Positions 1-20,843 of a stretch of DNA of 27,318 nucleotides are shown here, one piece after another. A model generated the notes under the pieces. It was not told where the DNA came from. It searched no databases and was given only the letters and a program-made list of their open reading frames with translations. The stretch is taken from positions 1-27,318 of the IMG/VR virus record IMGVR_UViG_3300010885_076458. The stretch is one strand, 5' to 3'. Made by a program: the position numbers and the translations under genes. The stretch is from a virus. Position 1 is the stretch's first letter. Each line of letters starts with the position of its first letter.

Positions 1-810
1 AACTGTGCCAATTAAGTTGCCACCTGCAATGTTGGCAGTTGTGGTGATGTTGGCAGCCGAAACCAGAGCTGACACCACATTGCTGGATAAACTCAAGCCA
101 GCAGCATTCAAGTTACCACCAGTGATGTTGCCAGTTACACTAACAGTAGTACCTGTGTGTGTAGTGGCATTGACGTTGGCGCCACCCAGCACATTGCCAC
201 CTGTGATATTACCGGTCACTGACAAGCTACCCAAAGTGCCAACACTTGTAATATTGGTTTGTGCGGCTGTAGTTAACGTACCCACAATATTGGTGCCACT
301 TAGATTACCACCAGTGATGTTGCCAGTGGCCGAAATCACGCCACCAGTTAGATAATTGGCAGCAGTACTATTACCGGTACTAGAAATCAATCCGTTATTT
401 AAGACATTGCCGCCAGTGATGTTGCCTGACACTGACACAGTAGCGCCTGTGTGTGTTGTGGCATTAACGTTGGCTCCGCCCAGGATATTACCGCCAGTGA
501 TGTTGCCTGACACTGACACAGTTCCAGAAATTACTGCGCCGGTTGAGCTTATGGTCAACACATTGGCAGTACCGGCAGCACTGACTGTGACGTTGGCACT
601 GCTGGCCACCACCACATTGCTGGTACCGTTGGTCAGTCCTGTTGCAACCACTGTATTGGCGTTGGCCAATACAGTGACCACGTTACTGCTGTTTTTAAAA
701 TACAGTATGCCGTCAGCATAATTTAAAGACAATTCTCCCAGAGTTAGAGCACCGGCCGTAGGAACTGCCGAAGCCGTGCCACTGCGCTTGATTAGAATTG
801 TGTTAGCCAT
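1..810 (-). CDS. Partial repeat-rich tail fibre, N-terminal 270 residues; continues beyond the left edge
   Basis: The frame starts at ATG 808-810 and stays open to base 1, so the C-terminus lies outside the window. The first 40 residues (ILIKRSGTASAVP...GELSLNYADGILYFK) resemble the short head domain seen at the start of many phage fibres, including the N-terminal domain of major tropism determinant (Mtd). It pairs closely with the start of the 813-2828 protein (ILLKR...GELAINTADGNLF.K). After it come a TNGTSNVVV segment and then repeats such as GNITGGNVL, with ANVNATTHTGTTVSV inserts also found in the 1224-aa protein. The start lies 2 bases after the upstream stop and has no convincing Shine-Dalgarno, so translational coupling is likely. 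Probable role: a structural adhesin. The fibre assignment is inferred from composition and modules. The receptor-binding end is not visible. Confidence 0.85.
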   Translation of the reverse strand, partial: MANTILIKRSGTASAVPTAGALTLGELSLNYADGILYFKNSSNVVTVLANANTVVATGLTNGTSNVVVASSANVTVSAAGTANVLTISSTGAVISGTVSVSGNITGGNILGGANVNATTHTGATVSVSGNITGGNVLNNGLISSTGNSTAANYLTGGVISATGNITGGNLSGTNIVGTLTTAAQTNITSVGTLGSLSVTGNITGGNVLGGANVNATTHTGTTVSVTGNITGGNLNAAGLSLSSNVVSALVSAANITTTANIAGGNLIGTV

Positions 811-812
811 TG

Positions 813-2828
813 TTAGTATGTACCGCCGTCAATGGTATCGTTGGCATTTAACACGCTGACTCCACCTTTGTATACCCCTGTTGTTCCAAGTATGTTACCG
901 CCAGTGATGTTGCCAGTTGCTGACGCAGTACCACCAGTGGCCAAATTACCGCCAGTTATGGTGGCTGTAGCAGATATCAGGCCACCAGTCAACACGTTGC
1001 CACCTGTAACATTACCGGTGGCACTTGATACTCCTTGTACATACAATCCGTTGCTTGCTACCCAAACGTTAGATGTGCTGTTGTAGGTCAATGAAATGTA
1101 CTCGCTGCCAGCTGGACCTACTCCTAATCCACCTCCATTGGCTTGAGCGGCCGATGACGCATTATTGGCCACGTTAATGGTCAAGTCATTGGTGGTAACG
1201 TTGTTAGAATTAATGTAAGTCACATTACCTGTGACACTCAAGTTACCAGCAATAATAACGTTGCCATCCACTCCGCCTGCACCATTTGGATCAATGATTA
1301 TTGTTGCTCCAGCAGCAACAATGTTGGCACCAGTGATTGTGATGTTGCCGTTGGTAAGTGCAGTGGTGGCCACTATGTTGCCGCCAGTGACATTGGCTGT
1401 GGCTGAAATCAATCCGCCAGTTACTAAGTTGCCACCTGTGACGTTGCCAGTGACACTGGCACTTGATCCTGTAATAACCCCACCCACAGTTGAGGCTGCT
1501 GTTACTGTGCCAGTCACACTTGCACTGCTGCCAGTTATTACTCCACCTACTGTACTTGCCGCTGTCACAGTGCCGCTTGCACTAACGCTGGCGGCACTAA
1601 CGGCTGCTGATGTGATCAAGTTGCCACCGGTGATGTTACCAGAGACACTGGATAATCCAGTTACATATTGTCCTGTGGTTGCCCAAACTACCACATTGCT
1701 GGTGCCGCTGATTGTAATATTAGCATTGCCATTTAGTGTTGTAGTAAGGTTTGTAGTTCCATTAGTGAGTGCTGTTGCTGTGGTTGCCGCCACACCAGTA
1801 AGTTGACTACCATTACCAAAGAAGTAGCTGCCAGTGATGTTGCCTGTGGCCGAAATATTGGCAGCAGTGTTGATGTTGCCACCTGTGATGTTGCCAGTTG
1901 CACTCACAGTACCACCTGTGGCCAAGTTGCCACCAGTTACTGAGCCAGATACTGACGCACTTGATCCTGTGATCACGCCACCCACGGTGCTTGCGGCTGT
2001 TTGTGTACCAGTTACGCTGGTACTTGATCCAGTGATTGCCCCGCCGACCACCGAAGCCGCCGTTACAATTCCAGTCACACTAGCACTGCTACCAGTTATT
2101 ACTCCACCCACAGTACTTGCGGCTGTTATGGTACCGCTTGCACTGACACTGGCAGCACTGACAGCTGCCGATGTGATCAAGTTGCCACCAGTGATGTTGC
2201 CACTTGCTGATACCACAGTGCCCAATAAACTTGAACCAGTTATGGTGCTGGTTGCTGATATCAATCCACCTGTTAATACATTACCGCCAGTGATGTTGCC
2301 AGCGGCACTTGCAGTTCCACCTGTGGCTACGTTACCACCAGTGATTGTGTCGCTGGCTGCAACTGTGCCTGCTACACTGACACCAGTGGTGGCAAATACT
2401 GCAACGTTTGCGGTTCCACCAACTCCAACTGTTACATTACCGCCTGAACTGACCACATTGACATTTGATGTGCCGTTGACAATACTACTGCTACTAGTTG
2501 TAATGGCATTGTTGCTGATGCTGGTAATACGTCCTTTGCTGTCAACTGTCACAGTGGGTATACTTGTAGCGTTACCGTATGCGCCAGCAACTACTCCAGT
2601 GCTAGATAATGCGGTGGTGATTGCTGTTTGTCCCGATCCGGTTACATCACCACTCAGTGTGATGGTTTGATTTTGTGTGAGATTAACAATGGCGTCACTG
2701 CCATTGTTAATCTTGGTAAACAAGTTACCATCGGCGGTGTTGATGGCCAACTCGCCCAGTGCCAAGCTGCCAGTTGTTGGAACAGTGGCGGCTGTTGCGT
2801 TGCGTTTTAATAAAATTTGATTGCTCAT
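813..2828 (-). CDS. Repeat-rich tail fibre protein with Mtd-like N-terminus (671 aa)
   Basis: Residues 1-50 form the KR...P..G.LALGELAINTADG head domain. A TNVAVFATTG segment follows, then long stretches of two repeat types: the 17-residue GNVTGGNL.TGG..SAT unit and the 21-residue TAASTVGGVITGSSASVTG unit. A FFGNGSQLTGV motif, common in phage fibres, sits mid-protein. Around residues 520-600 there is a NVTYINSNNVTTNDLTINVANN...GLGVGPAGSEY segment that recurs in the 1544-aa protein. The C-terminus ends TIDGGTY, close to VIDAGSY at the end of the 359-aa neighbour. AAGGAC lies about 7 bases before the ATG. The gene follows the 359-aa gene by 9 bases and precedes the partial fibre by 2, so the three are probably co-transcribed. 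The repeats suggest an extended beta-structured shaft. Function as a fibre is inferred. Confidence 0.88.
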   Translation of the reverse strand: MSNQILLKRNATAATVPTTGSLALGELAINTADGNLFTKINNGSDAIVNLTQNQTITLSGDVTGSGQTAITTALSSTGVVAGAYGNATSIPTVTVDSKGRITSISNNAITTSSSSIVNGTSNVNVVSSGGNVTVGVGGTANVAVFATTGVSVAGTVAASDTITGGNVATGGTASAAGNITGGNVLTGGLISATSTITGSSLLGTVVSASGNITGGNLITSAAVSAASVSASGTITAASTVGGVITGSSASVTGIVTAASVVGGAITGSSTSVTGTQTAASTVGGVITGSSASVSGSVTGGNLATGGTVSATGNITGGNINTAANISATGNITGSYFFGNGSQLTGVAATTATALTNGTTNLTTTLNGNANITISGTSNVVVWATTGQYVTGLSSVSGNITGGNLITSAAVSAASVSASGTVTAASTVGGVITGSSASVTGTVTAASTVGGVITGSSASVTGNVTGGNLVTGGLISATANVTGGNIVATTALTNGNITITGANIVAAGATIIIDPNGAGGVDGNVIIAGNLSVTGNVTYINSNNVTTNDLTINVANNASSAAQANGGGLGVGPAGSEYISLTYNSTSNVWVASNGLYVQGVSSATGNVTGGNVLTGGLISATATITGGNLATGGTASATGNITGGNILGTTGVYKGGVSVLNANDTIDGGTY

Positions 2829-2837
2829 GATTTGTCC

Positions 2838-3917
2838 TTAATAAGATCCTGCATCTATCACTTGATAATCGTTGACTATTTTAAACCACGACGTCCAAGT
2901 CCCACTATAAAGTGTTCTGTCCCACTGAATTTTTACATTGCCTGCTGTGACTGTGCCAGGATAAAATGTCTGGGTTGTTGTAGTTCCGCTGGTGAGAACC
3001 GACAATAATCCCACGTACACTATGCTGTCAACTGGCGCACCTGTGACTCCGCTCCACGAGCTGCGACTTACATTATATGTTCCCATATTTATTAGTGTGT
3101 CCCAATTATCTGGAGCAGTACCGCGATCTATCGCTGCATTTATCGCCGAAATGTTGCCGCCGGTGATATTACCACTGGTGCTGATTATGCCGGTAGAAAA
3201 TACGTTACCACCAGTTATGTTGCCTGTGATTGATATATCGTTTCCACTGGCAGTGACCACACTATTTCCATCAACTGTCAGGGCATTGCCTGTGGTTGAC
3301 ATTACAACATTGCCCATATAAATGGTGCTGTTGGCTATCCAAAGATCTTTCCAGCGATTTGTGCTATTGCCCAGGCTGTATGTTACATTGGCTGTGGGTA
3401 TCAAATTGGCAGTGGCAGAGATGTTGTTTGAACTGACCACCAACACATTGGCTGTGCCTGCTGAACTTATGGCCACCGTGGCATTTGAGTACACTGTGAC
3501 ATTACTGGTGCCGCCTGCAATTGAGTTGGCCATGTAATTTTGTGTGAATGTGAGTGCAGTGTTGCCAATGACAATGGGATTGTCGGTTATTAACTTCCAT
3601 TGTGTGTCAGCATACACTACACCTTCGGTCACCATCACAATCATGCCCGCATCTATTTCGCCGGTTTGATTACCGTCGGTGGTTCTGGTCCAGGTGCCGG
3701 TGGATCCAGACCCCAAAACGCTAACAAGGTATAGCCCGTTTTCGGTGCCGGTGGATTGAGCAGTTACCAAAATACGGTCGTTGGTACTGAGCGTGACTCC
3801 ATCGACCAGTGCCGGTGCTCCGCCCGTCAAGGTGATGTTGGTGGTTGTGACTACTCTGGTGGCTTGTTTGTAGTCTAAATTAAATATCTGTGCAGCACGA
3901 GGTCTGGTTAAGGCCAT
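2838..3917 (-). CDS. Phage tail fibre/structural protein with NGLY and WKDLW modules (359 aa)
   Basis: Residues about 19-130 carry a module widespread in phage fibres: DRILVTAQSTGTENGLY, a TWTRTTDGNQTGEIDAG segment and QWKLITDNP..IGNTALTF. A second module near residues 165-215 (YSLGNSTNRWKDLWIANSTIYMG) recurs in the 2159-aa protein. Two short copies of the GNITGGN repeat follow. The last 90 residues (DNWDTLINMGTYNV...GTWTSWFKIVNDYQVIDAGSY) have no repeats and look like a compact end domain, perhaps a tip. No strong Shine-Dalgarno is visible before the ATG at 3917, only a weak GGATG. The gene follows a strong terminator and is first of a three-gene run that leaves the window on the left. The structural role is well supported by module content. 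The exact position in the virion is not known. Confidence 0.88.
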   Translation of the reverse strand: MALTRPRAAQIFNLDYKQATRVVTTTNITLTGGAPALVDGVTLSTNDRILVTAQSTGTENGLYLVSVLGSGSTGTWTRTTDGNQTGEIDAGMIVMVTEGVVYADTQWKLITDNPIVIGNTALTFTQNYMANSIAGGTSNVTVYSNATVAISSAGTANVLVVSSNNISATANLIPTANVTYSLGNSTNRWKDLWIANSTIYMGNVVMSTTGNALTVDGNSVVTASGNDISITGNITGGNVFSTGIISTSGNITGGNISAINAAIDRGTAPDNWDTLINMGTYNVSRSSWSGVTGAPVDSIVYVGLLSVLTSGTTTTQTFYPGTVTAGNVKIQWDRTLYSGTWTSWFKIVNDYQVIDAGSY

Positions 3918-3938
3918 GGTTCATCCATTAATATCTAG

Positions 3939-3946
3939 TATTTAGC
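3939..3946 (-). promoter_or_regulatory. Possible degenerate late promoter (GCTAAATA)
   Basis: On the minus strand the octamer GCTAAATA matches the last six bases of the T4 late box TATAAATA. It sits between the terminator at 3951-3978 and the 359-aa start at 3917. T4 spacing would place the start of transcription near 3933, leaving a leader of about 15 bases. Two of eight bases differ from consensus, so this is suggestive only. Confidence 0.3.
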
Positions 3947-3950
3947 CAAA

Positions 3951-3978
3951 AAAATAGGACTGCTCAGAGTCCTATTTT
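3951..3978 (-). terminator. Intrinsic terminator after the 247-aa gene
   Basis: An 11-bp perfect inverted repeat (AAAATAGGACT / AGTCCTATTTT) encloses a 6-base loop at 3962-3967. On the minus strand the stem runs into a continuous T tract (3957 down to about 3948 reads TTTTTTT), just after the stop at 3996. It closes the 3996-4739 transcription unit and separates it from the 359-aa gene. Confidence 0.85.
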
Positions 3979-3995
3979 ACAATAAAAATTATAGT

Positions 3996-4739
3996 TTAAT
4001 ATCCAAATCTTGTTCGATAAGCACTCCATTGCGTCTGTATTTCTGATAGAGTCAGCACACCGTCCCATACTTTGACCAGGCCTACATCAGCAGTGGGTAC
4101 TTCTGTACTGGTAGTAGCGTTGGAATATCTACCAAACAATCGTAATCCTTGAAATCCACCGTTTGTGGGCTCGGTACCAAAAGTGGTTGTTGGCACGGTT
4201 GAGTTAGCAACGTAATTTTGCGAGAATGGTGCGCCTGCATTGCCGTTGTATGTGGCCCAGATAAATTGCCAAGCATTATCTTGTGGGGTAGTACCGCCCA
4301 CAAAGTTACCGTTGTAGAAAACGTCCTGAACACCACCACTGTTGCCCCATAGTCCCGCTAACCAATCTGGAGCGGCACTGTTGGCGTTTAACAATCTGCC
4401 CAGTGCTCCGGGTTGTGATCTGTACACCATCATTACTGTATAGTCTTCTGATGTGGCTGAATAATCTGGGCCAAATGTCAAGAAGTCTGTGGGGTCAGGG
4501 GCAGTTTTGCGGAATATTCCGCCGTTGGCAGGATCCCATGACATACTACCGCCAGGGTTCAGTGTTGTTATGGTGTAACCGCCGGTGCCTGCTATGGTGG
4601 TTCCGTCCGCAGGCATAGCTGTATATCTAGCTGCGTCAAGATCAAGAATCAAAGCAGGTGGCACAGGCTCATATCCAATGTGCCAACCTGGGCCTATTGA
4701 CCATCCTGGTCCAATTTGTATACCTTGTGGTAATGACAT
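3996..4739 (-). CDS. Lectin-like (LamG/concanavalin-fold) phage structural protein (247 aa)
   Basis: The protein opens with a short imperfect repeat (IQIGPGWSIGPGWHIG). Residue 28 onward reads like a concanavalin A-like jelly-roll: LILDLDAARY at the start, DYTVMMVYRS and WQFIWATYNG strands in the middle, and GLVKVWDGVLTLSEIQTQW near the end. The last segment corresponds to the final strand and helix typical of LamG-type domains in phage and bacterial surface proteins. No signal peptide or membrane segment is seen. It has no 17-residue repeats, unlike its neighbours. It stands alone between two terminators (3951-3978 and 4764-4785). No late box or clear Shine-Dalgarno precedes the ATG, so it may depend on readthrough from the 1224-aa gene. 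Possible role: carbohydrate binding at the fibre or baseplate. Fold assignment is from sequence pattern only. Confidence 0.85.
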   Translation of the reverse strand: MSLPQGIQIGPGWSIGPGWHIGYEPVPPALILDLDAARYTAMPADGTTIAGTGGYTITTLNPGGSMSWDPANGGIFRKTAPDPTDFLTFGPDYSATSEDYTVMMVYRSQPGALGRLLNANSAAPDWLAGLWGNSGGVQDVFYNGNFVGGTTPQDNAWQFIWATYNGNAGAPFSQNYVANSTVPTTTFGTEPTNGGFQGLRLFGRYSNATTSTEVPTADVGLVKVWDGVLTLSEIQTQWSAYRTRFGY

Positions 4740-4763
4740 AATATTCTACTTATCCAATAAAAA

Positions 4764-4785
4764 GATAGGGCCCGTAGACCCTATC
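4764..4785 (-). terminator. Intrinsic terminator after the 1224-aa fibre gene
   Basis: GATAGGG (4764-4770) pairs with CCCTATC (4779-4785) around an 8-base loop. On the minus strand it is followed by TTTTTATT. It lies 20 bases past the stop codon at 4805 and so closes the long fibre unit that begins at 14987. Confidence 0.8.
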
Positions 4786-4804
4786 CGTTACAGTGTTACC
4801 TGTG

Positions 4805-7800
4805 TTAGAAGCGGCCTACAACAACTTCAATTGTGCCTTCTGCACCATCAAAATCTTCCAGCGCTTTACCAATCACAGTGCCCACTGCTGGCTCCGCTTC
4901 GGCCCTGGCCTGCCCTGATCCGGCTGCCACCATCATGTCACCTTTGCGCACAGTGCCAACAACTGATGTTGGTACCCGTCCGGTCAACGCAATTGCCACT
5001 GCAAACTTGCTGTCCAATCCTTCATTCATTAACAATCCAGGGTTGGTAGATACTACACCAGCAACACGACGATCAGCGTCCGCAGCATCCGCTGTGACTT
5101 CTGCTGTGCCGCCAAACACCAAAACTGTTCCGGGAGCATATGCCGCATCAGCTGTGTATTTCTCTGCCAAGTCAGCATATTGTGCCGTTGTGGCTTTGGC
5201 AAACACTGTGTTGAAGCCAACTGTGCTAGATCCAATATTGCCAACACCGTTTGTGGCACCATTGACAATGGCTGTGACGTTAGCACCTGAATTCACAGTG
5301 AGTTGACCAGCTGTTGTAATATTGCCGCCGGTTACTGTGCCAGTTACTGAAGTAGAACTTCCAGTAATTACGCCACCCACTACTGATGCGGCTGTTACAG
5401 TGCCAGTTACTGAAGTAGAACTTCCAGTAATTACGCCACCCACTACTGATGCGGCTGTAACAGTGCCAGTTACACTAACTGTGGTACCTGTATGTGTGGT
5501 GGCATTGACGTTGGCTCCGCCCAGCACGTTGCCACCTGTGATGTTGCCAGTGACACTGACACTTGATCCAGTGATCACGCCACCAACTACTGAAGCACCT
5601 GTTACTGTACCAGTGACACTTGCACTTGATCCAGTTATAACTCCACCAACTACTGAAGCAGCAGTCACAGTACCTGTAATGCTTACTGTGGTACCTGTGT
5701 GGTTTGTGGCGTTTACGTTGCCAACGTTAATGTTGCCTGTGACCGTTGCTGTGGTTCCTGACAATATGTTGCCGGTGATGTTGCCACCAGTGACGTTGCC
5801 TGTGGCTGAGATCAGACCACCAGTTAATACATTACCACCTGTGACATTGCCAGTGGCTGATGCAGTTCCACCAGTGGCCAAATTGCCACCTGTTACAGTG
5901 GCAGTGGCCGATATCAATCCACCTGTGAGTACGTTGCCACCTGTGACATTGCCAGTGGCACTTGCAGTACCACCTGTGGCCAAATTGCCACCTGTTACAG
6001 TGGCAGTGGCCGATATCAATCCACCTGTGAGTACGTTGCCACCTGTGACATTGCCAGTGGCACTTGCAGTACCACCAGTGGCCAAATTGCCACCTGTGAC
6101 CGTGCCAGTTGTACTCAAAGTGGTACCTGTGGCAGCACCAATGTTGGGAGTGGTCAATACAGCCGACGCTTTGACTGAGATGTTGCCTGAACCGTCAAAT
6201 GCAGTTGTGGTGCCATCAACTTTGGCGCTGATAACTGTGCCAGTTAGGCTGATACCTGCTGAGGTATTGGCTGAGTAAACTTGGCTGGTACTAAAAGTAG
6301 TAAATGTAATGCTGCTGGTACCAAATGTGATTGTGCCTGTGGGCGCATTGACCACAAACGCAGCACCAGCATTGACGTTACCAGCTGTGGTAAAGAAGTA
6401 GTCATTGATACTCAATGCAGTAGTACTGTCAGCACCGTATTCATCTGTGTCAGTTGAACGCACAATGTTGGTGGCGTTGGCCCAGGTATACACCCCGTTG
6501 GTGACTGCATTGGCTTCGTTCTTGACCAAGATACGTGTGCCAACAGTTTGTACATTGGATGTGTCAATCAAGTTGAATGATCCAGTTGTGGTCAACAGCG
6601 CACCCACGCCATTGGCTGCGCCATTGGGTTGAGTGTATGTGATTGTACCGCCAGTGGCCGCAGCCAAAGTGGTGTTGGTAGCGGCTTGAACCGGAGTATG
6701 AAATGCAATGCCAGTTGTGGCAAAATTATCAACATAGGCTTTAGTCGCTACATCTTGATTTTGTACAGGATCACTCACTCCATTGATGTACTTGCTGTTG
6801 ACCACAATGTTGCCAGTGGGTTGTAAATTTAAATTACCTGCGCTGGTGCTGATTGTGAGTGCAGCAGTGTTGCGAACTGTGGGAGCTACCACTGCGGTAG
6901 TTGCCACTGTGTTGCTGCCTGTTACGTTACCAGTTGCGGTAATACCGTAATTGCTGAGAGCAGTCAAGTCAAGGACGCTGGTTGAGAATGTGGCCACTGT
7001 GTCACCGCCTATGGTGACCACAACGTTGCTGCCGATAGCAGGAATGCTTACACTGCTGGTACCGTTTGCAATTTTGTAAGAAGTTGTGGCAGATATGCCA
7101 GTGAGAGCCAAGCCATTGCCAACAAAAAAGTTGCCGGTGACGTTGCCAGTGGCACTAATCAATCCACCAGTTAATACATTGCCGTGTACAGCATTACCAG
7201 TTGAACTCATTATGCCAGCGGTCAATACATTGCCGCTGGTGACGTTGCCTGCTACGCTGAGTCCAGCGGCACTGCTGAATGCAGCTATTGCACTGGGTTG
7301 TGTGGCTGCTGTTGCGGTGGTGTATACTACCACGTTGGTAGCACGGCTGGCATCTGTAAAGTTTTCTGCAGCCACAATGTCTATTCGACCAGTTGAAGAA
7401 TTGCCAAACTGCAATGTTCCGTTGCTGAATCCACGACCTGTAAACTGAGAAACAGTATCGCCCAACAAAGTTTGTGTTGGACTAGCCGCTGTACCTCTAG
7501 CAGTGCGTCCAGTGAATGCTGAATACACAGTTGCACCAAATGCGTCTTGTGTGATGCGAGTTTGCAAACCGTCTTGACTGGTTATGTGCAGGTCTGTTCC
7601 TGTAGTGGTACTGTTACCTGTTACAGGATAGCTCACAGTCTGTGTATTTCCTAAAATAGCAAGTTTGGAATCAGGAGTGGCTGTGCCCACACCAATATAA
7701 CCATTGGTGCCAGTGATGATGTTGCCTGTGGCACTTACAATACCACCTGTTAGATAGTTTGCTGCTGTGCTGTTGCCGGTGGCACTAATCAATCCACCTG

Positions 7801-11500: not shown

Positions 11501-14500
11501 GGAAACCGCCGCTGGAGGCAACAACTCCAGTCAACTGTGAGCCGTTGCCAAGGAAGTAACTGCCAGATCCGCTGGTGATGTTGCCGGCAGCTGAAATCAA
11601 GCCACCTGTTTCTATGTTGCCACCAGTTACATTGCCGGTTACACTGGAGCTGGAGCCGGTAATGACACCGCCTACGGTTGAAGCAGCAGTCACTGTGCCG
11701 GTTACGCTGAGGCTGTCACCTGTGGCAGCACCAATGTTGGGTGTGGTCAGTTGTGCGCTGGTCTTGACGCTGATGTTGCCAGTGACATCAAATGCTGTAG
11801 TAACATCATCAACTTTGGCATTGAACACAGTGCCAACCAGACTCAAGCCAGCTGCAGTATTGGCTGTGTATGTCTTTGAAGTACTGAACAAAGAGAATTC
11901 AATGTTGCTGGTACCAAAAGTGATTGTGCCAGTGGGTGCTGACACCACAAAAGAACTGCCTCCGTTGACATTGCCGTTGGTAGTAAAGAAATAGTCGTTT
12001 AGACTCAATTCTTCTACGCTGTTGGGTCCGTACTGGTCTGTATCTGTAGTGCGAACAATGGTTGTGGCATTGGCCCAACCGTAAACACCGTTCCAGGCCG
12101 CATTGCCTTCGTTCTTGACCAGGATACGAGTGTTGGCTGTTTGAACGTTGGCAGTGTCAATTAGATCAAATGAGCCAGTTGTTTGCAAGTATGCCCCAAT
12201 TCCGTTTGAAACGCCGTTGGGTTGTGTATAGGTCACTGTACCACCTGTGGTGGTGGTCATTGTGGTGGTCGATGCCACATAGACCGGTGGGTGGTAAGAA
12301 AGACCAGTGGCCACTAGGTTGTCAACATAAATTTTGCTGGCAGCATCATTGTCTTGTACTGGTTGATTCAATCCGTTGATATAGGTGGCGTTGACCACAA
12401 TGTTACCAGAAATTGGACTCAAATTAACGTTGCCTGTGCCGGTTGTGATGGTTAGTCCAGTGACACCACTCACTGTGGCAGTGTTTACTATTCCAGAAGT
12501 GTTGATGTTGCCGGTGGCACTAATCAAGCCAGCCGTTAATATATTGCCACCAGTTACGTTGGCTGCAGCACTAACTAGTCCAGCTGTGAGCACATTACCA
12601 CCTGTCACATTGCCGGTTGCCGAAGCAGTGCCGCCTGTGGCCAAATTACCGCCAGTGACATCACCTGTGGCCGAAACATAACCACCTGTCAGCACATTGC
12701 CGCCGATCACATTGCCGGTTGAGCTGGTCAATCCACCAGTCAATACATTGCCACCTGTGACGTTGCCACTGGCACTGATTAGTCCACTTGTTTCTATATT
12801 GCCACCAGCTACATTGGCTGTTGATCTGATGTTGCCAGTGGCAGTTATGAATCCACCAGTTAAGATGTTGCCGCCGGTGATGTTGCCGGTGGCCGTCATG
12901 AAACCGCCAGTTAAAATATTGGCACCGCTTATATTAGCCGCACTGGTGATTGTGCTGGTGGCCGAAATCAATCCAGCTGTTAAAATATTACCACCAGTGA
13001 TGTTGGCTGTGGCACTGACTGTGTTGGAAGAAACTTGATTGTTTGCAAAAAGATTGTTGGCTGCAAAATCTCCGGAACCAACAGACACCGACGAAGCATT
13101 GGCTGTGACTGTTTGTGGTCCTAGATAGATACTGTTGCCGGCTAGCCACAGGTCTTTCCAGACATTTGTAGAATTGCCCAGTGTGTATAAGGCATTGGCA
13201 ACCGGTATTAAGTTGCCGGTAATGGTGCCAGCAATGCTGAGATCGTTGGTAGCAAGCAATCCAACTGCTGTTATATTGCCTGCTGTAGCATTACCAGTGA
13301 TATTCAATGCACTGACCACGTTGCCACTCAAGCTCAATCCAACAGCGTTCAAATTGCCAGCATTTACGTTGGCCGCACTGGTGATTGTGCTTGTGGCCGA
13401 AATCAAACCACCGGTCAATACATTGCCACCTGTGACATTGCCGGTGGCACTTGCTGTTCCGCCTGTGGCCAAGTTGCCACCTGTAACGGTAGCTGTGGCT
13501 GAAATTAACCCACCGGTCAAGATGTTGCCACCTGTGATGTTGCCGGTGGCACTTGCTGTTCCACCTGTGGCCAAATTACCACCAGTGATGTCGCCGGTGG
13601 CTGAAATCAAACCACTGGTTAAAATATTGCCAGCAGTTACGTTACCAGAAACACTGGCTTCGCCAGTGGTGTAGGTTCCTGTGTCGGCCCATACCATTAC
13701 ATTAGATACTCCAGCAACAGTAGTATAGATGTTGCCATTGGCCGTAGCGCTAATGTTGGTAGTACCAGCTGTTATTGGAAAACCGGCGCTAGAAGCAGCA
13801 ACTCCTGTCAATTGTGAACCGTTACCAATAAAGTAACTGGCAGCATTGGCCACGATGTTGCCCGCGGCACTAATTAGGCCACCAGTCAGGATGTTACCAC
13901 CTGTGACATTGCCAGTGGCACTTGCTGTTCCGCCTGTGGCCAAGTTGCCACCTGTAACGGTAGCTGTGGCGCTGACCAATCCGCTTGTCAGTATATTGCC
14001 ACCGGTCACATTGCTGGTAGCTGAGATCAATCCAGCTGTAAGAACATTGCCACCTGTGACGTTGCCAGTGGCACTAGCTGTGCCACCTGTGGCCAAGTTG
14101 CCACCAGTGATGTCGCTGGTAGCCGAAATCAAACCACTAGTCAATACATTGCCACCGGTCACATTGCCTGTAGCACTTGCTGTGCCACCTGTGGCCAAGT
14201 TGCCACCTGTAACGGTAGCTGTGGCACTAATCAACCCACTAGTCAATACATTGCCGCCAGTGATGTTGCCTGTAGCACTTGCTGTTCCACCAGTGGCCAA
14301 ATTACCACCTGTAACGGTAGCTGTGGCACTAATCAAACCACTAGTCAATACATTGCCACCGGTCACATTGCCAGTGGCACTTGCTGTTCCACCTGTGGCC
14401 AAGTTGCCACCTGTGATATCGCTGGTGGCGCTGATCAATCCTGGAGTCAATAGGTTGCCACCGGTGATGTTGCCAGTAGCATTGACTGTGCCAACCAAGT

Positions 14501-14987
14501 TGCCAACAAAACTGGTGTTACCGTTGAAAATTGCATTGCCGCCAATGTTGGCGTTGCCCATGTGAATGTTAGCAAATCCTGTACCTGTGACTGTGGGGCT
14601 ACCATTGCCCACGTTGGCTGTGGAAACATACAATGATTGAAATTCTAAGTCACTTTCTTTCCAAACCCAGGCAATATTGGTTGCTGTACCGCGTTGTCCA
14701 AGGAAACCAATGTCGCTGACTGGATTGCCACTTTGTGTGGATGCCAGCGTAATTACCGGATCTTCAATGGTTGTATTGGTTGTATTGACCGCAGTAGTTG
14801 TGCCGCTAATGATAAGATTACCTGACACTGTCAGGTCTGATCCATAGGTCAAGTTATTGGCCAACAGTCCGCCAGTGATGGTATATTCTTGAATTTTGCT
14901 CTGTGCGTTAATACCTAAAATTGTATTACCACTGACCGCGGTCGAAACTTGATTGTTCCGAATTCTTGTTAAACTATTTACAGCCAT
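8508..14987 (-). CDS. Giant repeat-rich tail fibre with C-terminal S74 intramolecular chaperone (2159 aa)
   Basis: The start follows AAAGGA about 8 bases upstream. The N-terminus (SLTRIRNNQVSTAVSGNTIL, then DLTVSGNLIISGTTTAVNT) looks like an attachment region. Long arrays of 17-residue GN[VI]TGGN.LTGG..SAT repeats follow, broken by modules: IGNGSQLTGVAAS segments, a LYTLGNSTNVWKDLWLAGNSIYLG block near 590-640, the shared ~215-residue YVD/NGVY module (about 873-1091), and RPATGVSGMLRYNT plus NGDGANTVFTL modules (about 1789-1902). The last 91 residues, from Ser2069, match the Peptidase_S74/endosialidase chaperone family: SDATLKTNI, YGLIAQKVEEVLPEAV, VNYSMVIPFLIETVKEL. In that family the domain drives trimerisation and cleaves itself off before the SD serine. 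This is the longest gene here and probably a major fibre shaft. Confidence 0.95.
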   Translation of the reverse strand: MAVNSLTRIRNNQVSTAVSGNTILGINAQSKIQEYTITGGLLANNLTYGSDLTVSGNLIISGTTTAVNTTNTTIEDPVITLASTQSGNPVSDIGFLGQRGTATNIAWVWKESDLEFQSLYVSTANVGNGSPTVTGTGFANIHMGNANIGGNAIFNGNTSFVGNLVGTVNATGNITGGNLLTPGLISATSDITGGNLATGGTASATGNVTGGNVLTSGLISATATVTGGNLATGGTASATGNITGGNVLTSGLISATATVTGGNLATGGTASATGNVTGGNVLTSGLISATSDITGGNLATGGTASATGNVTGGNVLTAGLISATSNVTGGNILTSGLVSATATVTGGNLATGGTASATGNVTGGNILTGGLISAAGNIVANAASYFIGNGSQLTGVAASSAGFPITAGTTNISATANGNIYTTVAGVSNVMVWADTGTYTTGEASVSGNVTAGNILTSGLISATGDITGGNLATGGTASATGNITGGNILTGGLISATATVTGGNLATGGTASATGNVTGGNVLTGGLISATSTITSAANVNAGNLNAVGLSLSGNVVSALNITGNATAGNITAVGLLATNDLSIAGTITGNLIPVANALYTLGNSTNVWKDLWLAGNSIYLGPQTVTANASSVSVGSGDFAANNLFANNQVSSNTVSATANITGGNILTAGLISATSTITSAANISGANILTGGFMTATGNITGGNILTGGFITATGNIRSTANVAGGNIETSGLISASGNVTGGNVLTGGLTSSTGNVIGGNVLTGGYVSATGDVTGGNLATGGTASATGNVTGGNVLTAGLVSAAANVTGGNILTAGLISATGNINTSGIVNTATVSGVTGLTITTGTGNVNLSPISGNIVVNATYINGLNQPVQDNDAASKIYVDNLVATGLSYHPPVYVASTTTMTTTTGGTVTYTQPNGVSNGIGAYLQTTGSFDLIDTANVQTANTRILVKNEGNAAWNGVYGWANATTIVRTTDTDQYGPNSVEELSLNDYFFTTNGNVNGGSSFVVSAPTGTITFGTSNIEFSLFSTSKTYTANTAAGLSLVGTVFNAKVDDVTTAFDVTGNISVKTSAQLTTPNIGAATGDSLSVTGTVTAASTVGGVITGSSSSVTGNVTGGNIETGGLISAAGNITSGSGSYFLGNGSQLTGVVASSGGFPIVSGTSNISAISSGNISVSVANVANVVIFGDTGTYFAGFTSTVGNVTAGNVLTIGLISATGNVSGSYFIGNVEATTVSASGNITGGNVVTGGLISATGNITSTANIGAGNITTTGLISATGTINSSANVVAGNVVTGGLITATGNVTGGNINTGGLISATATITGGNLATGGTASATGNVTGGNVLTGGLISATATITGGNLETGGTVSGTGNITGGNVLTAGLISAAATVTGGNLETGGTVSSTGNITGGNINTGGLISATATVTGGNLATGGTASATGNVTGGNILTSGTVSGTGNVTGGNILTVGLVSATGDITGGNLATGGTASATGNVTGGNILTVGLVSATGDITGGNLATGGTASATGNITGGNILTVGLVSATSTITSDANITGGNILTGGLISATGNVTGGNLNTSGSGGSISGSGNITGGNLLTGGQVSAIGNVTGGNVLTGGVVSTIGNITAGANAVSYVFGNAFYMTGLNEAISTNKINNGNSYANIATSNGNLVVAIGASSNTVATFYDQGVDFSGPISASGNVTGGNVLTGGLISATGNVTSNNLILVSGKIDSTGSAINVNGSQANVNFRVFGLSNAAVFVVDAGTETASFGSNTQTTNALVAFNSSTSILLPVGNTAQRPATGVSGMLRYNTTNNSLDLYNNNEWASIGATVFTVIADDQFNGDGANTVFTLTTGNLTTNSCMVSINGVMQLPTTAYAVTGNSTASTLTFTEAPAAGDQIDVRAMTTTTTVTSLQNGNASVVANSVPAGGEVDINGNTVITGTLSVSGGIVGLASNKISSGTSEANIGTPNGNLAVSIGGTSNVAVFSSGLLAITGDLSVSGNATLSGNILGDRIQNGTTTIDIQTASGNANITVGGTSNVAVFAPTALYITGNISATGDVIAQNVNSLSDATLKTNITPIENAGAVVDGLNGVGYDWTNGSGHAYGLIAQKVEEVLPEAVKTDENGIKSVNYSMVIPFLIETVKELRQDIAEIKAQLKN
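8711..8783 (-). other. S74 chaperone start and predicted self-cleavage point
   Basis: Codon 8781-8783 encodes Ser2069 of the SDATLKTNI motif. In endosialidase-type chaperones cleavage occurs just before the serine of this motif, using a serine/lysine pair. The lysine of LK is present. Mature fibre would end at residue 2068. Cleavage here is inferred from the family. Confidence 0.65.
10380..11060. repeat. Array of 51/102-bp fibre repeats, block 1 of the 2159-aa gene
   Basis: Successive copies of the 51-bp unit, alternating as LATGG..SAT and LT.G(LV)[IV]SAT types, run through this stretch. A recurring exact segment is gttccacctgtggccaaatt. Copies differ mostly at third codon positions, with local near-identical pairs such as 10420-10480 and 10510-10580. 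Confidence 0.8.
13430..14460. repeat. Array of 51/102-bp fibre repeats, block 2 of the 2159-aa gene
   Basis: This is the N-proximal repeat array. The 102-bp period is clearest at about 13910-14410, where ccacctgtaacggtagctgt recurs. The array is interrupted at about 13650-13850 by an IGNGSQLTGVAAS / GTTNISATANGNI module. Confidence 0.8.
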
Positions 14988-15027
14988 TTTTTTTCCTTTG
15001 AGTATCTAGTCAGCCAGACTATAGACG

Positions 15028-15035: not shown

Positions 15036-15131
15036 ACCGCTGCAGGAAACTGCCCGATTGAGCCTGTATTTAGGATCGGTGTGTTTTTACAAGGATGATA
15101 CTTTTAAGAAATTATATATTGTAGGATCAAA

Positions 15132-15139
15132 TATTTATA
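15132..15139 (-). promoter_or_regulatory. T4-type late promoter (TATAAATA) upstream of the 2159-aa fibre
   Basis: A perfect TATAAATA on the minus strand lies in the only gap of any size (14988-15174) in the fibre region. Predicted start of transcription is near 15126, with a leader of about 139 bases. In T4 this octamer is read by RNA polymerase carrying the late sigma factor gp55. No clear intrinsic terminator was found in the gap after the 344-aa stop, so readthrough from upstream is also likely. Confidence 0.7.
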
Positions 15140-15174
15140 AACCCAAGGTCAAAACAACAACTTATTGTATATTT

Positions 15175-16209
15175 TTATAAAAATCTGATATCAATTACAT
15201 CACCTGTACTTGGTGCTTCTGTAAAAACCAAGTTGGCGCTGGGACTTGGCGACATGCTGTAGGCCGTTCCGGGCAACTGAACCACACCGTTGATCATGAT
15301 CAATGCTGCGGCTGTGGTAGTTGAACGATTCAATGTAAATGTGGTATTTGCTCCGTCACCGTTGAGTACCTGATTGGTAACTGCGGTGCTGGTAGACGCC
15401 CAGGAATTGCCGTTGTAAACTTCTAAAAGCGAAGTTGTGGTATTAAATCTAACAGTTCCTGTGGTGCCCGAGCTGGGCCGTTGAGTAGTATTACCCACTG
15501 GAATAACCAGCCCTGTTGTGGTGTTGATACTAACTAATCCAGTTCCGGTGGGTTGTAATGTAATTGTTGCATTGGCCACGGTTGCAGTAATTGTGGTATT
15601 ACTGACGCTCAAATTGCCCAGCACAGCAGAACCACTTACACCAAATGTTCCTACATATCTATAACCCACAACAAAAACTGATTTGCCGGTGACTCCACCA
15701 GTGATCACTGACGGTATGTTGGTACCATTGAAATTTAATACACCGGCTTGATAATCAAAAAACCAAGTATCATCATTGCCCGATCCTGCTTGGAACAATC
15801 TTGTGCCAGTGGTTTGAGGAGTAGTAGATCCTGAGGTATCCACATAGACCTGTACCAAGTAGTTGTCTCCAAACTGTGTGGGTATCCAGTTGGCAAGATT
15901 TGTTTTCCAAGTTTGATTATCAGGGGCTGTTAAATCTTCAGTACATTCCACAGTGGGACTGTAGCCGCCACCGCCGCCATCTTTGTAAACTTGAACTTCT
16001 GAACTTGTGTTTGTTGGGGGAACCGCCGGGATGCTTCCGCTGTTGGTCCAAACCAAGTCTCCTCGATACAGCAACGGACTGGCTATGCTTTCATTAAAGG
16101 CTTCCTTGGAGCCAGACCCTGGAGGTGGTATAGAAGTTTTGGCCACACCGTAGCCAACTTTTTTCCAAAGATAGTCTAATTTTTGCGATTCGCTAAATGA
16201 GGCGGCCAT
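15175..16209 (-). CDS. Conserved T4-like phage structural protein, LWKKVGYG type (344 aa)
   Basis: The N-terminal two thirds (FSESQKLDYLWKKVGYGVAKT; ASPLLYRGDLVW; TWKTNLANWIPTQFGDNY; WFFDYQAGVLNF; VFVVGYRYVGTFG) form a block I recognise from virion-associated proteins of marine T4-like phages. Its function is not established. The C-terminal third carries two exchangeable modules: RPSSGTTGTVRFNTTTSLLEVYNG.SW (about 233-271) and NGDGANTTFTL...IMINGVVQLPGTAY...FTEAP.TGDVIDIR (about 278-343). Both also occur in the 141-aa and 2159-aa proteins. Its ATG shares one base with the stop of the 1544-aa gene (TAATG), so the two are translationally coupled. No 17-residue repeats are present. Likely a baseplate or fibre-base component. 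Confidence 0.9.
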   Translation of the reverse strand: MAASFSESQKLDYLWKKVGYGVAKTSIPPPGSGSKEAFNESIASPLLYRGDLVWTNSGSIPAVPPTNTSSEVQVYKDGGGGGYSPTVECTEDLTAPDNQTWKTNLANWIPTQFGDNYLVQVYVDTSGSTTPQTTGTRLFQAGSGNDDTWFFDYQAGVLNFNGTNIPSVITGGVTGKSVFVVGYRYVGTFGVSGSAVLGNLSVSNTTITATVANATITLQPTGTGLVSINTTTGLVIPVGNTTQRPSSGTTGTVRFNTTTSLLEVYNGNSWASTSTAVTNQVLNGDGANTTFTLNRSTTTAAALIMINGVVQLPGTAYSMSPSPSANLVFTEAPSTGDVIDIRFL

Positions 16210-19200
16210 TACACAGCAACTCCTATAGAAATTGCAGTGATCGTTTGACCACTACTGAGTGCAACACGAACCAAGATATTGTTGCCAGTGCTATTGCTTG
16301 AATTTTGCGAGCCCAGAGTCATGGTATAACTTACATTGGCAATGGCTGTGTTGAGCGGCACTACGTCAGCACCAGTCAATGCACAGCCGTTGCTGCCGTT
16401 GCCACCAGCTCCTGTGTTTGCTCCTGGCACACCAGAGCCGTTGTACTGTGCTGAACAAGTTATCCAGCCATCGAGACTGGAAGTTGGGCCTACTCCGCCC
16501 ACATTGGTGTCAATGGTAGTACCGGGTGCTGCCAACCACATGCCAGCAATGCCCGAGGCTGCTGTGAGTCTAATGTCAAAATTGGCCATGGTGGCTCGGC
16601 GGAAAGCAAAAGTAAAATACTGTAGTCCAGATCGACCTGTTACCAAATCTGGCCCTACTGGCAGGTAACCTGTGCTGAAATTGGCAGAATTAAAATGTTG
16701 TAGTGTGCCCCAACGCACCACGGATTCAGCGGTGCCGGTCATGGTCACGGCACCAGACCAAGCATTACCAGTGTAGTAGTTGGTACTGCCACTAAAAGCC
16801 GGGGTGTTGGCAGCGGAACCAAATCCGGTCACACGCAGTCCGTTGTCAGTGTATACTGAACCAAGACTTGCAGAAACTGCAATATTTGATTCATTGAACC
16901 CGGTCAGTGCTGTGCTGTATACTTGTATTTTGGTAGGTAGCTGTATGGTCGCGCTGGTTCCGTTGACGTTGATGATATTGGCCCCCACGGTGGCCACTGC
17001 TTGTGCAGATCCATCAACATTGATAGCCAGATTGCCCATGGTGTAAGCAGCACTGATGCCCACATTGGCATTGGGTATTCCACCAGTCAACATGCTCACA
17101 GAACCGTTGATTTGTGCATAAGTTTTAGTCTGTGTGCTGATGATTGACCCGGATGTGCTTTCGTAGTTGGTGCCTGACAACACAGTCACTGGAGTTGTGG
17201 TGCTACGATATGTTTGTCCAGTGAGATTGCTCACTGCCAGGCTGTTGATTGATATTACTGGACTACCGGTATTATAGTACGGCACACCAGAAATATAACG
17301 ATAAGTTCCTGCTGTGGTTTCTGTCATGGTCACACTGGCATTGCTGAGCGCAGGCACTGCTGACAAATTATCTTTGACAAACCCAGTGGCATTGGTGTTG
17401 CCAGTGGTAGAATGCACCAGTTTGTAGTCGCTGTAGCCGGTGCTCAAACTGGCCAGTGATTTGCTAACATATGCACTGAATACTTTGTAGAATCCGGTAG
17501 GATAAGTGGCACTGATCACTGAGTGTGCATCTGCATCCTGAGTCACCACCAGGCTGGTAAATGTGCCTGTGTTGCTGGTACCAACACTGAATGGTGTATT
17601 TCCTGCGGCTGCGTTGTTTATATAAGCTGTGAGTACACCTGTTGTTGAAGTATTGGCAGCACTGGCTGTGGTACTGATCACCGGCGTAGACGTCACATAA
17701 CGTGTAACCGATGAGCCTGCTGACGGAATATTGCCACCTGAATTGTCTGTGGCATTTGCGGCCAGCAATGGACTGGTGCCTTCGCTGGCTGTGCTCATGC
17801 TGATGGTCTTGGTACTCAAAGCACCCGGTGCGGCAGGATTAGCAGCAATAGTGATATAACTGGTGCGTGTTTGTGTGTTGCTTTGTGCAGTGGTACCCGG
17901 AGTGCCATTGGCAGTCAGTGCCACAGTATAACTGCCAGTAGCGGTATAAGTGTGATTTACATTGCTGAGATTGGCGACACCGTTGGAATATGTGCTGTCG
18001 CCAAAACTCCAGTTGTATAAATTGGCCAACTGACTGGTGTTTTGGAAACTGAATACGGCTCGATTGTTTCCGTTGTAGTCGGTGTAGATATAGCCAGTTT
18101 GTGCAGTGGCACCGGACGCATCGCTTTGTGTGTTGGCTGTGCCCAGAAAGTTGGCCCGCACTTCGGGTTCTACAGTGATTGTGACGTTGCTGGCTCGGAA
18201 TGGACTGGTGCTGTAGCCAGTGTACAGCCAGAGATTTGCTGTGTAATTCACTGTGGTTCCGGCAGACTGTTGTCCAGCGGTCAATGCAAAAGTATGAGTG
18301 ATGTTGGCTGCGCCTGGGTTGCCGGCCAGGCCAGACTGAATATTGACGTTGCTGTTGGCAGTGCCATCGCCCCATTGCCAGTTGTACAGTTGTTGCGCTC
18401 CATACACAGCAGTGGTACCTGGACTGCCTGGTGTGTCGTTTCTAAAACTGACCACACCACCACTGGTGGCTGCATAATTGATCACATTCAGTGTGTTGGC
18501 CGTGAACGCAGGACTTTGTGGAGAATAAACTTTTACAAAACTGGTGCTGGACACTGTGCTGACATTGGCCGGTCCAGCGGTGTTGCTGGTGGCAGTAAGC
18601 ACAATGCCATATCTACTGTCGGTATTGGCTGAATTGGTATAGGTATGTGATTGTGTGGTCCATCCTGAATTGAAGTTTGCGTTGGCTGATCCGTCGCCCC
18701 AATTCAATTCAAAGTAGTTGGCATATTGACTGGCATTGCTGATCTGAGCACTGTTGCCTGAGTTGATACTGCTGTTGGCCACTGTAAATGCACTCACAGG
18801 AGTTGGCGTATACAGTGTGATGTAATTTGTTCTAGTGGTGCTTGACACACTGCCTTTGGCGCCAAGGGCCGCATTGCCGCTGTAGGTTCCGTTGGTGTTA
18901 TAGGCAGTGTAAGTGACTGTAAATTGTCCACCCGCCACATTGCTGTAGGTATGAGATGGGTTGGCACTGGTGCTGGTCGTTCCATCACCAAAATCCCAAA
19001 GATAACTGTTGACATTGCCAATGTAGGTGCCTGTAAATGCCACTGTCACTGGACTAGAACCCGACAATGGTGTTCCTGTGAGATTGGCTTGTCCTACATA
19101 AGTGCCTTTGGCAATATTTAATGACACCTGATTGAGATCGTCAAGTCCGTCAGTTACATAAGTGGCAGTGGTCCAGCCAGGATAAGCCACGTTGACAGTC

Positions 19201-20843
19201 AAACTACCGTCTGCAGGAGTTCCCAACGGTATTAAATTGCCAATGACATTGCCGCTGACGTTGCCAGCTTGACTGTCAACATAGGCTTTGGTTGCTGCAT
19301 CTGAACTGACCACCGGATTGGCCAAATTATTAATATTGACATTACCAACACTGATATTGCCATTGCTGCGCAACAAGATATTGCCTGTTATGATATTGCC
19401 ACCTGTGACATTGCCAGTTACACTTAGGCTTGTTCCGGTAGCTGCACCAATGTTGGGAGTGGTCAAGTTGGCGCTGGCTTTGACAATGATATTGCCGCCG
19501 CCATCAAATGCTGTGGTGTTTTCATCTACTTTGGCACTGATCAATACGCCAGCAATAGCAACGCCGTTGCCGGCGTTGTAAATTTGACTCTGACTGAATT
19601 GACTGAACTCAATATTGCTAGAACCAAAAGTGATTACTCCGGGCGGTGCGCTGACAACCCAACTGGTACCTAGATTGATGTTGCCACTTGTTACAAAGAA
19701 ATAGTCGTTCAAACTCAACTGTTCTGTGCTGTTGGGACCATATTGGTCTGTGTCCGTCGTACGCACGACCGTGGTCGCATTGGCCCATCCGTAAACGCCA
19801 TTCCACACAGCATTGGCTTCATTTTTAATCAAAATGCGTGTGCCAACTGTTTGCACGTTGGCAGTGTCAATCAAGTTGAATGAACCGGTTGTTTGCAAGT
19901 ATGCGCCTACGCCGTTCGAAACTCCATTAGGCTGAGTGTAAGTCACAGTACCACCCGTGGCGGTAGTTGCAGTTGTGGTTGTGGCTGCTACAACTGCGGT
20001 ATGGAAGCTGAGCCCTGTGGATGCTTGAATGTCAACATAGTATTTGCTGGCAACATCTTGATCTTGTTGTGGCGTTAGTTGTAATCCATTGATGTAATTG
20101 TTGTTTAAAACAATATTGCCGCCTGGCGATATATTGATATTTCCGGATCCGGTACTGACTGTTAGGCCAGTGGCATTGTACAACTGTCCGGCGTTGATAT
20201 TGGCACCAATTATGTTGCCAGAGGCACTGACCAATCCTGAAATATATTGACCAGTGGTCGACACTGTCACAACGTTTGATGTGCCAGTTATAGAAGTTGC
20301 CACATTGCCGTTGGCATAGACTTTTACATTGCTGGTTCCATTTTGTATACTGGTAGCATCAATGCCGGTCAATTGTGATCCGTTGCCGATGAAATAATTG
20401 CCAGTGACATTGCCCACAGCACTCACGCCCACATTTGTGGTCCAACTGTTGGCCGAAGTATTGTAGGTCCAATTGGTCAAAGGTGTGCCAGCTGGACCAA
20501 CATTCAGGCCAGCACCGTTGATGTTGGCATAGGTGGATTGATTGTTGGCCAATTCAATGTACAAGTCATTGGTAATGATAACATCAGTGTCTCTAAATGT
20601 AACATTGCCCTGAACATCCAAATTTCCAAGTATGGTGACATTGTTGCTGATGTTTAAATTGTTACTAGAAACATTTCCAGTGGTGCTGAGATTGTTGGCA
20701 AGAATATTACCATTGACCTGCAATGCAACCGTGGGCGATGTAGTATTGATACCTACGTTGGCATTGGAAATAGACAGAGCAATTCCGTCTCTCTCGAGTA
20801 CATTTGCTAAAATCTGTCCTTTTATGTAATTGATCATTGACAT
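16209..20843 (-). CDS. PKD-domain-containing phage fibre/adhesin (1544 aa)
   Basis: Residues 1-255 resemble the other fibres: NVGINTTSPTVALQVNGN, DLYIELANNQ...GLNVGPAG, YFIGNGSQLTGID and QNGTSNVKVY. Residues about 255-473 are the shared YVD/NGVY module. From about 600 to 1000 there are four PKD-like Ig-fold repeats, marked by WDFGDG (near 614), NWGDG (715), WQWGDG (822) and WSFGDS (941), each followed by HTY or HTF. Residues 1000-1350 are Ser/Thr-rich without recognised domains. The end (FTFAFRRATMANFDIRLTA...GSNGCALTG...TMTLGSQNSSNSTGNNILVRVALSSG) looks like a compact tip domain. PKD domains usually mediate protein or glycan contacts on surfaces. The start lies 11 bases after the 141-aa gene. 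Probably a receptor-facing adhesin. Confidence 0.92.
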   Translation of the reverse strand: MSMINYIKGQILANVLERDGIALSISNANVGINTTSPTVALQVNGNILANNLSTTGNVSSNNLNISNNVTILGNLDVQGNVTFRDTDVIITNDLYIELANNQSTYANINGAGLNVGPAGTPLTNWTYNTSANSWTTNVGVSAVGNVTGNYFIGNGSQLTGIDATSIQNGTSNVKVYANGNVATSITGTSNVVTVSTTGQYISGLVSASGNIIGANINAGQLYNATGLTVSTGSGNINISPGGNIVLNNNYINGLQLTPQQDQDVASKYYVDIQASTGLSFHTAVVAATTTTATTATGGTVTYTQPNGVSNGVGAYLQTTGSFNLIDTANVQTVGTRILIKNEANAVWNGVYGWANATTVVRTTDTDQYGPNSTEQLSLNDYFFVTSGNINLGTSWVVSAPPGVITFGSSNIEFSQFSQSQIYNAGNGVAIAGVLISAKVDENTTAFDGGGNIIVKASANLTTPNIGAATGTSLSVTGNVTGGNIITGNILLRSNGNISVGNVNINNLANPVVSSDAATKAYVDSQAGNVSGNVIGNLIPLGTPADGSLTVNVAYPGWTTATYVTDGLDDLNQVSLNIAKGTYVGQANLTGTPLSGSSPVTVAFTGTYIGNVNSYLWDFGDGTTSTSANPSHTYSNVAGGQFTVTYTAYNTNGTYSGNAALGAKGSVSSTTRTNYITLYTPTPVSAFTVANSSINSGNSAQISNASQYANYFELNWGDGSANANFNSGWTTQSHTYTNSANTDSRYGIVLTATSNTAGPANVSTVSSTSFVKVYSPQSPAFTANTLNVINYAATSGGVVSFRNDTPGSPGTTAVYGAQQLYNWQWGDGTANSNVNIQSGLAGNPGAANITHTFALTAGQQSAGTTVNYTANLWLYTGYSTSPFRASNVTITVEPEVRANFLGTANTQSDASGATAQTGYIYTDYNGNNRAVFSFQNTSQLANLYNWSFGDSTYSNGVANLSNVNHTYTATGSYTVALTANGTPGTTAQSNTQTRTSYITIAANPAAPGALSTKTISMSTASEGTSPLLAANATDNSGGNIPSAGSSVTRYVTSTPVISTTASAANTSTTGVLTAYINNAAAGNTPFSVGTSNTGTFTSLVVTQDADAHSVISATYPTGFYKVFSAYVSKSLASLSTGYSDYKLVHSTTGNTNATGFVKDNLSAVPALSNASVTMTETTAGTYRYISGVPYYNTGSPVISINSLAVSNLTGQTYRSTTTPVTVLSGTNYESTSGSIISTQTKTYAQINGSVSMLTGGIPNANVGISAAYTMGNLAINVDGSAQAVATVGANIINVNGTSATIQLPTKIQVYSTALTGFNESNIAVSASLGSVYTDNGLRVTGFGSAANTPAFSGSTNYYTGNAWSGAVTMTGTAESVVRWGTLQHFNSANFSTGYLPVGPDLVTGRSGLQYFTFAFRRATMANFDIRLTAASGIAGMWLAAPGTTIDTNVGGVGPTSSLDGWITCSAQYNGSGVPGANTGAGGNGSNGCALTGADVVPLNTAIANVSYTMTLGSQNSSNSTGNNILVRVALSSGQTITAISIGVAV

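Follow-up and report, generated by a model that had tools for sequence, protein, structure and literature searches.

The viral record IMGVR_UViG_3300010885_076458 from IMG/VR, 27,318 nucleotides long, classed as a genome fragment and analysed here over its whole length as the window, contains a locus of fibre genes in which six proteins share a repeat of 17 residues. These six reading frames had been named in an earlier reading made from the sequence only, and all of them were found at the positions given below, on the minus strand, as are all the genes of the window described here unless stated otherwise. In what follows, g1 to g8 are the fibre genes of the window, H stands for their N-terminal heads, T for their C-terminal ends, and L with a number for relative loci.

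The repeat and the genes that carry it

The giant fibre gene g6 (8508..14987) codes for 2159 amino acids (aa) and holds 51 repeat units. Its H6 head (14508..14987), whose homologues open the giant gene after H7 in relatives, is followed by an array of 12 units of 17 residues (13872..14483), a D module (11709..12455) and the largest array of the gene, with 21 units (10134..11267), and the protein, which also carries an E module, finishes in an S74 end (8508..8810). The adjacent g5 (4805..8479) starts with MAIKINGN and contains 21 units and a D module (6125..6859) before its ADLAEKY end (T5, 4805..5242, with the ADLAE motif at 5162-5176). According to the matrix and module analysis, g8 (16209..20843) combines an H8 head with F and D modules, two PKD domains, three units and a T8 end (16209..17396) that matches PHROG 8578 (3.6e-59) and has homologues in Caulobacter and Brevundimonas jumbo phages. 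The remaining three genes are g3 (2838..3917), with an H3 head (3534-3917), a C module, two units and a T3 end; g2 (813..2828), with an H2 head, 12 units accompanied by longer ones, and an F module; and g1 (1..810), with an H1 head and six units, which is truncated by the end of the record. The C-termini of g2 and g3 have a hexapeptide in common, IDGGTY (813-833) and IDAGSY (2838-2858), and this ending was present in 9 distinct open reading frames (ORFs) among the 4365 of our collected set, all nine of which carry fibre modules. The sequence-only reading had also described an Mtd-like head, which our results do not bear out, since the N-termini of g1 and g2 gave no match to Pfam Mtd_N at E up to 1.

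Sharing of the repeat by the six proteins was confirmed with a 17-column position matrix trained on the motif, which detected 95 units (consensus SATGNVTGGNVLTGGLI) in the six genes, whereas residue-shuffled versions of the six proteins gave 0.03 in total on average. This sharing is very uneven, however, as the units cover 29-40% of g1, g2, g5 and g6, but 9% of g3 and 3% of g8. The strict 17-residue spacing proposed earlier holds in part as well: 61 of the 89 distances between successive units are multiples of 17, but the rest are irregular, including 20, 23, 27 and 33 as well as long gaps that hold other shared modules, and a second unit of ~21 residues (SVTGTVTAASTVGGVITGSSA) is intermixed with the first in g2, g5 and g6. 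Once the repeats had been masked, the modules common to the proteins could be recognised, namely B (~50 residues) in nearly all of them, C in g3 and g6, D (~250 residues, 58-71% identical) in g5, g6 and g8, E in g6, g7 and g9, and F in g2 and g8.

The repeat units are nearly devoid of charged residues and have V/I/L positions at regular intervals, and AlphaFold2 folded the 12-unit array of g6 (13872..14483) into a regular beta-solenoid with a long and a short strand in each unit (mean predicted local distance difference test score, pLDDT, 95.5; predicted template modelling score, pTM, 0.89). The regular beta fold suggested by the sequence-only reading was thus obtained, but this result has little force: even random perfect repeats come out of AlphaFold2 as confident solenoids (PMC11795689), and because of this over-prediction the model supports ordered beta structure weakly. 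Taken literally, the model would make the repeat a monomeric beta-solenoid with 17 residues per coil and not a three-chain beta-helix. We regard this as possible, at somewhat less than even odds. The strand pattern and the regular, nearly charge-free units are consistent with it, but the confidence of the model is of the unrealistic kind that perfect repeats receive, a search of PDB folds with the model gave no significant match (best tapirin, 2e-3), and S74 chaperones serve trimeric fibres with a triple beta-helix.

Heads, shafts and ends across related loci

About 280 related loci were gathered, and each of their genes was rewritten as a string of modules. In most loci the genes that follow the major capsid protein gene (24806..26002 in the window, where it is the upstream anchor of the locus) are collinear, in the order G11-G10-G9-H8-H7-H6-H3, and among unique gene pairs H8 is followed by H7 in 42/60, H7 by H6 in 46/61 and H6 by H3 in 47/53. 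What stands behind these heads is variable. H3 heads occur with all three of the ADLAEKY, S74 and T3 ends; the ADLAEKY end was in addition joined to H6, H7, H1 and H2, S74 to H6, and T3 to H7. Genes with an H6 head measure 874-2680 aa (three short or odd ORFs aside), contain 0-57 units, and have T5 as their end in 52 cases and S74 in two, one of which is the window. H3 genes end in T5 in 27 cases, the remainder having other known modules or unknown sequence, and the H7 head is joined to many different bodies, with E as the end in 17 genes, T3 in 6, T5 in 4 and others in 40. H8 genes, for their part, have the T8 end in 48 of 65 complete relatives. A separate observation on g8 comes from L011, which has nearly the same capsid gene as the window and lacks the first 400 residues of g8, with the F and D modules. 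In the Caulobacter phage CcrBL9 (L292, 4840-7026), an H7 head and a T8 end belong to one protein, which is followed by a stand-alone H7 gene, so that module combinations also vary across phage families. The sequence-only reading took the locus for a toolkit for exchanging heads, shafts and tips, and the comparison of locus layouts partly supports this idea: shafts and ends appear to be swapped, ends being found behind different heads and near-identical phages gaining or losing modules, but the order of the heads is not reshuffled and H8 mostly keeps T8.

The window has an arrangement of its own at H6. In most relatives a single gene runs from the H6 head to the T5 end; in the window the H6 head leads to the S74 end, and T5 is carried by a second gene, the one with the MAIKINGN start. 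A MAIKINGN gene occurs in five records and follows an S74-ended gene in all four that have upstream sequence (the window, L213, L176 and L193). The D module of g6, 64-71% identical to those of g5 and g8, groups with that of L284, whose H6 gene also has an S74 end, and the g5 copy is 89% identical to that of L260 and 85% identical to the D module of the L096 H6 gene. The simplest reading would be that an S74-ended fibre entered with the H6 place and that the older body persists as g5. We rejected the idea that the three D modules had recently undergone gene conversion, since where their residues are identical the codon agrees in only half of the cases, which indicates that the copies are old. 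Incongruence between head and shaft within g6 was also rejected, as its head, D module and S74 end all point to L284 and g6 looks like one inherited unit; the incongruence is that of g6 versus g5.

The way in which shafts change can be followed in phages that are nearly identical. L129, L130 and L134 are ~98% identical over 13-15 kb, and their H3 genes, which agree in head and C-terminus, code for 679, 483 and 933 aa, respectively. A segment of L134 is missing from L129, with the junction at the DNA level inside a TGNI.SGNI unit; a second difference among these genes is flanked by two direct repeat copies of ~36 residues; and at a third, the place taken in L129 by C and further sequence is occupied in L130 by a B module, the two rejoining within GNITTAGTVNAG. 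Similarly, within a 21-residue array, the differences between L206 and L192 amount to exactly 21 and 63 residues. Repeat units thus appear to act as junctions in these few events. The difference between L259 and L271 (577 versus 651 aa) was not counted as an exchange. These two are otherwise identical, and a 2-bp TA indel near 11610 causes a frameshift close to the end of their H3 fibre gene, which may reflect either an assembly error or a phase-variation-like change.

Indels of exactly one or three units would also be expected if the repeats were the product of ordinary replication slippage, with no role in exchange, and if the differences between phages were neutral length drift plus divergence, and some neighbouring units are indeed 96-100% identical in DNA. 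We consider this explanation improbable. As many as 94 of the 95 units are distinct in DNA, and units with identical protein sequence mostly diverge in DNA (75-98% identity), which suggests that most of them are old and held by selection. Moreover, whole different modules have been swapped at the same position, as in L129 versus L130, and ends move between heads. We read the repeat as an old family under selection, with some recent duplication.

Several genes without the repeat also belong to the locus and share in its conserved order. G9 (20855..21280) is a stand-alone E module (PVG...RYN....E.Y....W), common to g6 and g7, and precedes H8 in 59/62 unique pairs. It is preceded by two conserved small structural genes, G10 (21280..21609; G10 to G9 in 64/67) and G11 (21619..22227; G11 to G10 in 63/65), and the conserved structural gene G12 (22323..23276) has homologues after the capsid gene in 34/55 unique pairs. 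Within the run of fibre genes, g7 (15175..16209) consists of an H7 head (15625-16209) joined to an E module (15175-15522) and matches PHROG 9417 (5e-34), while G4 (3996..4739), a gene of 247 residues with no Pfam match, is flanked by the H6/T5 gene and the H3 gene and precedes H3 in 7/7 unique pairs.

Antisense to these genes, between the capsid gene and G12, is a gene for a tetratricopeptide repeat (TPR) and glycosyltransferase-9-like protein (23302..24570, plus strand, probable start at residue 41; Pfam TPR_11 5e-11, and a weak match to Glyco_transf_9, 2.7e-4). It has 62 homologous ORFs, those listed being in the same place and orientation, and its product may modify Ser/Thr-rich fibres or the capsid. 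A wider proposal, which is tentative and on the unlikely side, is that the 17- and 21-residue units would be doubly used, as coils of the shaft and as recombination handles at the DNA level for in-frame swaps of shafts and ends, both among the paralogous fibre genes of a genome, spread over two or three loci, and between phage families, with the linked TPR-glycosyltransferase perhaps decorating Ser/Thr-rich shafts.

The S74 and ADLAEKY ends

The S74 end of g6 (residues 2069-2121) matches Pfam Peptidase_S74 (PF13884) with 51.5 bits, above the curated cut-off of 22, and keeps a candidate catalytic Ser2069 (8781-8783) and Lys2074 in the motif SDATLK. These residues are five apart, as are the catalytic serine and lysine of pb1 (S911/K916), endoNF (S587/K592) and MyRF (S1264/K1269). 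The S74 end is probably an intramolecular chaperone, and it is predicted to cleave itself. In a comparison with the long tail fibre of T4 (gp34-gp37), shaft and head had no sequence relation, and only the S74-containing C-terminus of g6 matched the family of the distal subunit and structure 6f45.

The ADLAEKY end was found in at least 579 viral stretches. Among 36 diverse members, 14 matched Peptidase_G2 (PF11962) at E up to 1, with a best value of 7e-6, and A39, D40, A42 and E43 are invariant in 36/36, so that a DxAE motif is kept. By eye, ADLAE aligns with SDFAE of the phi29 neck appendage gp12. Comparison with gp12 by hhalign gave a weak local match only, so that the DxAE correspondence is based on the Pfam match, the fold and inspection by eye; a PDB sequence search with the ADLAEKY profile gave nothing useful. 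The model of the domain has pLDDT >90 over most of its length, and Foldseek matched it to phi29 gp12 (3suc) with a probability of 1.00 and a template modelling score of 0.57. We consider the ADLAEKY end to be probably a distant relative of the gp12 chaperone, and predict that it is chaperone-like, while cleavage by this end is doubtful.

The main rival for this domain is a capsid-binding role, in which the ADLAEKY end would be a cement-like foot and the locus would build fibres or decorations of the head surface. The locus comes directly after the capsid gene, and the best Foldseek matches of the domain, which rank above gp12, are the HFTV1 capsid, the Pam3 cement protein and the base of the phi29 head-fibre gp8.5; in addition, the PHROG matches were to a family named head decoration for g3 and to virion structural protein families for g7 and g9. 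The 14 matches to Peptidase_G2, however, compare with single weak matches to Phage_cement (1/36, 0.006) and Phage_cement_2 (1/36, 0.05), and 26/36 members match a tail-fibre PHROG. The domain is C-terminal, in the same place as the S74 chaperone of the sister gene g6, for which the PHROG matches are baseplate and long-tail-fibre families. The homologue in PA5oct, EST35_0124 (L294, 7044-8480), has an ADLAEKY-type end, was detected in virions and adjoins a gp10-like baseplate gene, which favours a tail over a capsid location. We judge the capsid role to be quite unlikely, and the chaperone-like reading of the ADLAEKY end is preferred. The different ends of these proteins had been seen as tips by the sequence-only reading; they do differ, but receptor tips are no longer the first choice for the S74 and ADLAEKY ends, as both match chaperone families and look like folding domains.

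Genome context and known fibre systems

The major capsid protein of the window is of gp23 type (Pfam Gp23 7.2e-97; PHROG 138 4e-98), in agreement with the earlier label of T4-like phage, and is ~65% identical to those of the jumbo phages PA5oct, Phosso and Vibrio 2.275. Among the relatives with these genes are jumbo phage contigs measuring 317-353 kb, and in most of these contigs the motif is present in 2 or 3 separate places. The window is a fragment of a far larger genome, and the impression that an unusual share of it, over half of 27 kb, is devoted to fibres is therefore an effect of fragment size, since ~23 kb of fibre genes would make up roughly 7% of a probable 340 kb genome. The aquatic jumbo "moraphages" were considered too, but the hosts described for them are mostly Bacteroidota, their genomes reach 307 kb at most, and nothing connecting them with the locus was found.

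We propose, with a probability of about 0.7, that the locus is part of the tail-fibre (adhesin) region in a jumbo phage whose head is of T4 type. The N-terminal head would fix each protein at its place on the virion, heads and their order being conserved, and would be followed by a shaft of short beta-forming repeats, interrupted by a few shared modules, and then by the C-terminal end. The length and content of the shaft would change by recombination, at least partly between repeat units, and the reading frame would be kept because the units are whole codons, as seen in a few close pairs and presumed in general. Trimer folding would be assisted by the S74 end as a chaperone, and probably by the ADLAEKY end too, with S74 probably cutting itself off. 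Receptor binding would fall to the shaft modules or to the newly exposed end, and recombination may in this way change both reach and specificity.

Some of our results weigh against this proposal. The repeat array had no match among isolated phages, and the virion location of the window proteins is consequently inferred only. The relatives were gathered by queries with these same modules, which biases their counts, the evidence for junctions rests on few events, and metagenome assembly across repeats can produce false indels. As for the ADLAEKY end, the copy in the window is below the PF11962 cut-off (14.6 versus 25 bits, E 0.022), all 36 sequences have alanine where phi29 has the serine before its cut (Ser691-Asp692), and the closest folds in the PDB are capsid cement proteins, with a best fold match of 6e-5.

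Fibres and spikes of the Peptidase_S74 type, such as T5 pb1, the endosialidase endoNF and the GA-1 neck appendage, resemble g6 in having the same C-terminal domain behind a beta-rich shaft, but the shaft in the window is made of 17- and 21-residue repeats and most relatives have the other chaperone-like end at this place. The C-terminal domain of phi29 gp12 has a similar predicted fold and the DxAE motif, but besides the alanine and the weak sequence match the host phages are unrelated. The Klebsiella jumbo phages (phiKp24 and the RaK2/phiK64-1 group) are also jumbo myophages with many fibre genes, and in their multi-fibre systems the N-terminal attachment parts are conserved while the C-terminal parts vary (PMC9700779), but their depolymerase beta-helices and T4 gp10-like docking domains were not recognised in the window. 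Phage receptor-binding proteins have been shown to share fragments between otherwise different fibres by recombination (Smug et al. 2023, PMC10684548), whereas swaps of the window type would take place among paralogues of one locus linked by a common repeat. Jumbo phages of Caulobacter and Brevundimonas (phiCbK group) have a homologous H7 head and T8 end, which form one protein in CcrBL9 and belong to two genes in the window. A search of the open-access literature for a 17-residue repeat and tail fiber found no paper, and the repeat family is apparently undescribed, although modular phage fibres themselves are already known. The locus would represent an established mode of fibre change, seen here in an elaborate form and in a repeat family that is apparently undescribed.

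Little is known of how jumbo phages adjust their host range; they abound in metagenomes and are difficult to grow. The ADLAEKY end may be a widespread, unannotated chaperone-like family, for which PA5oct EST35_0124 provides a tractable model from an isolated phage. The grammar of the locus, with fixed heads, elastic repeat shafts and chaperone-like ends, is visible in many uncultured genomes, and pairs of near-identical phages allow its junctions to be read.

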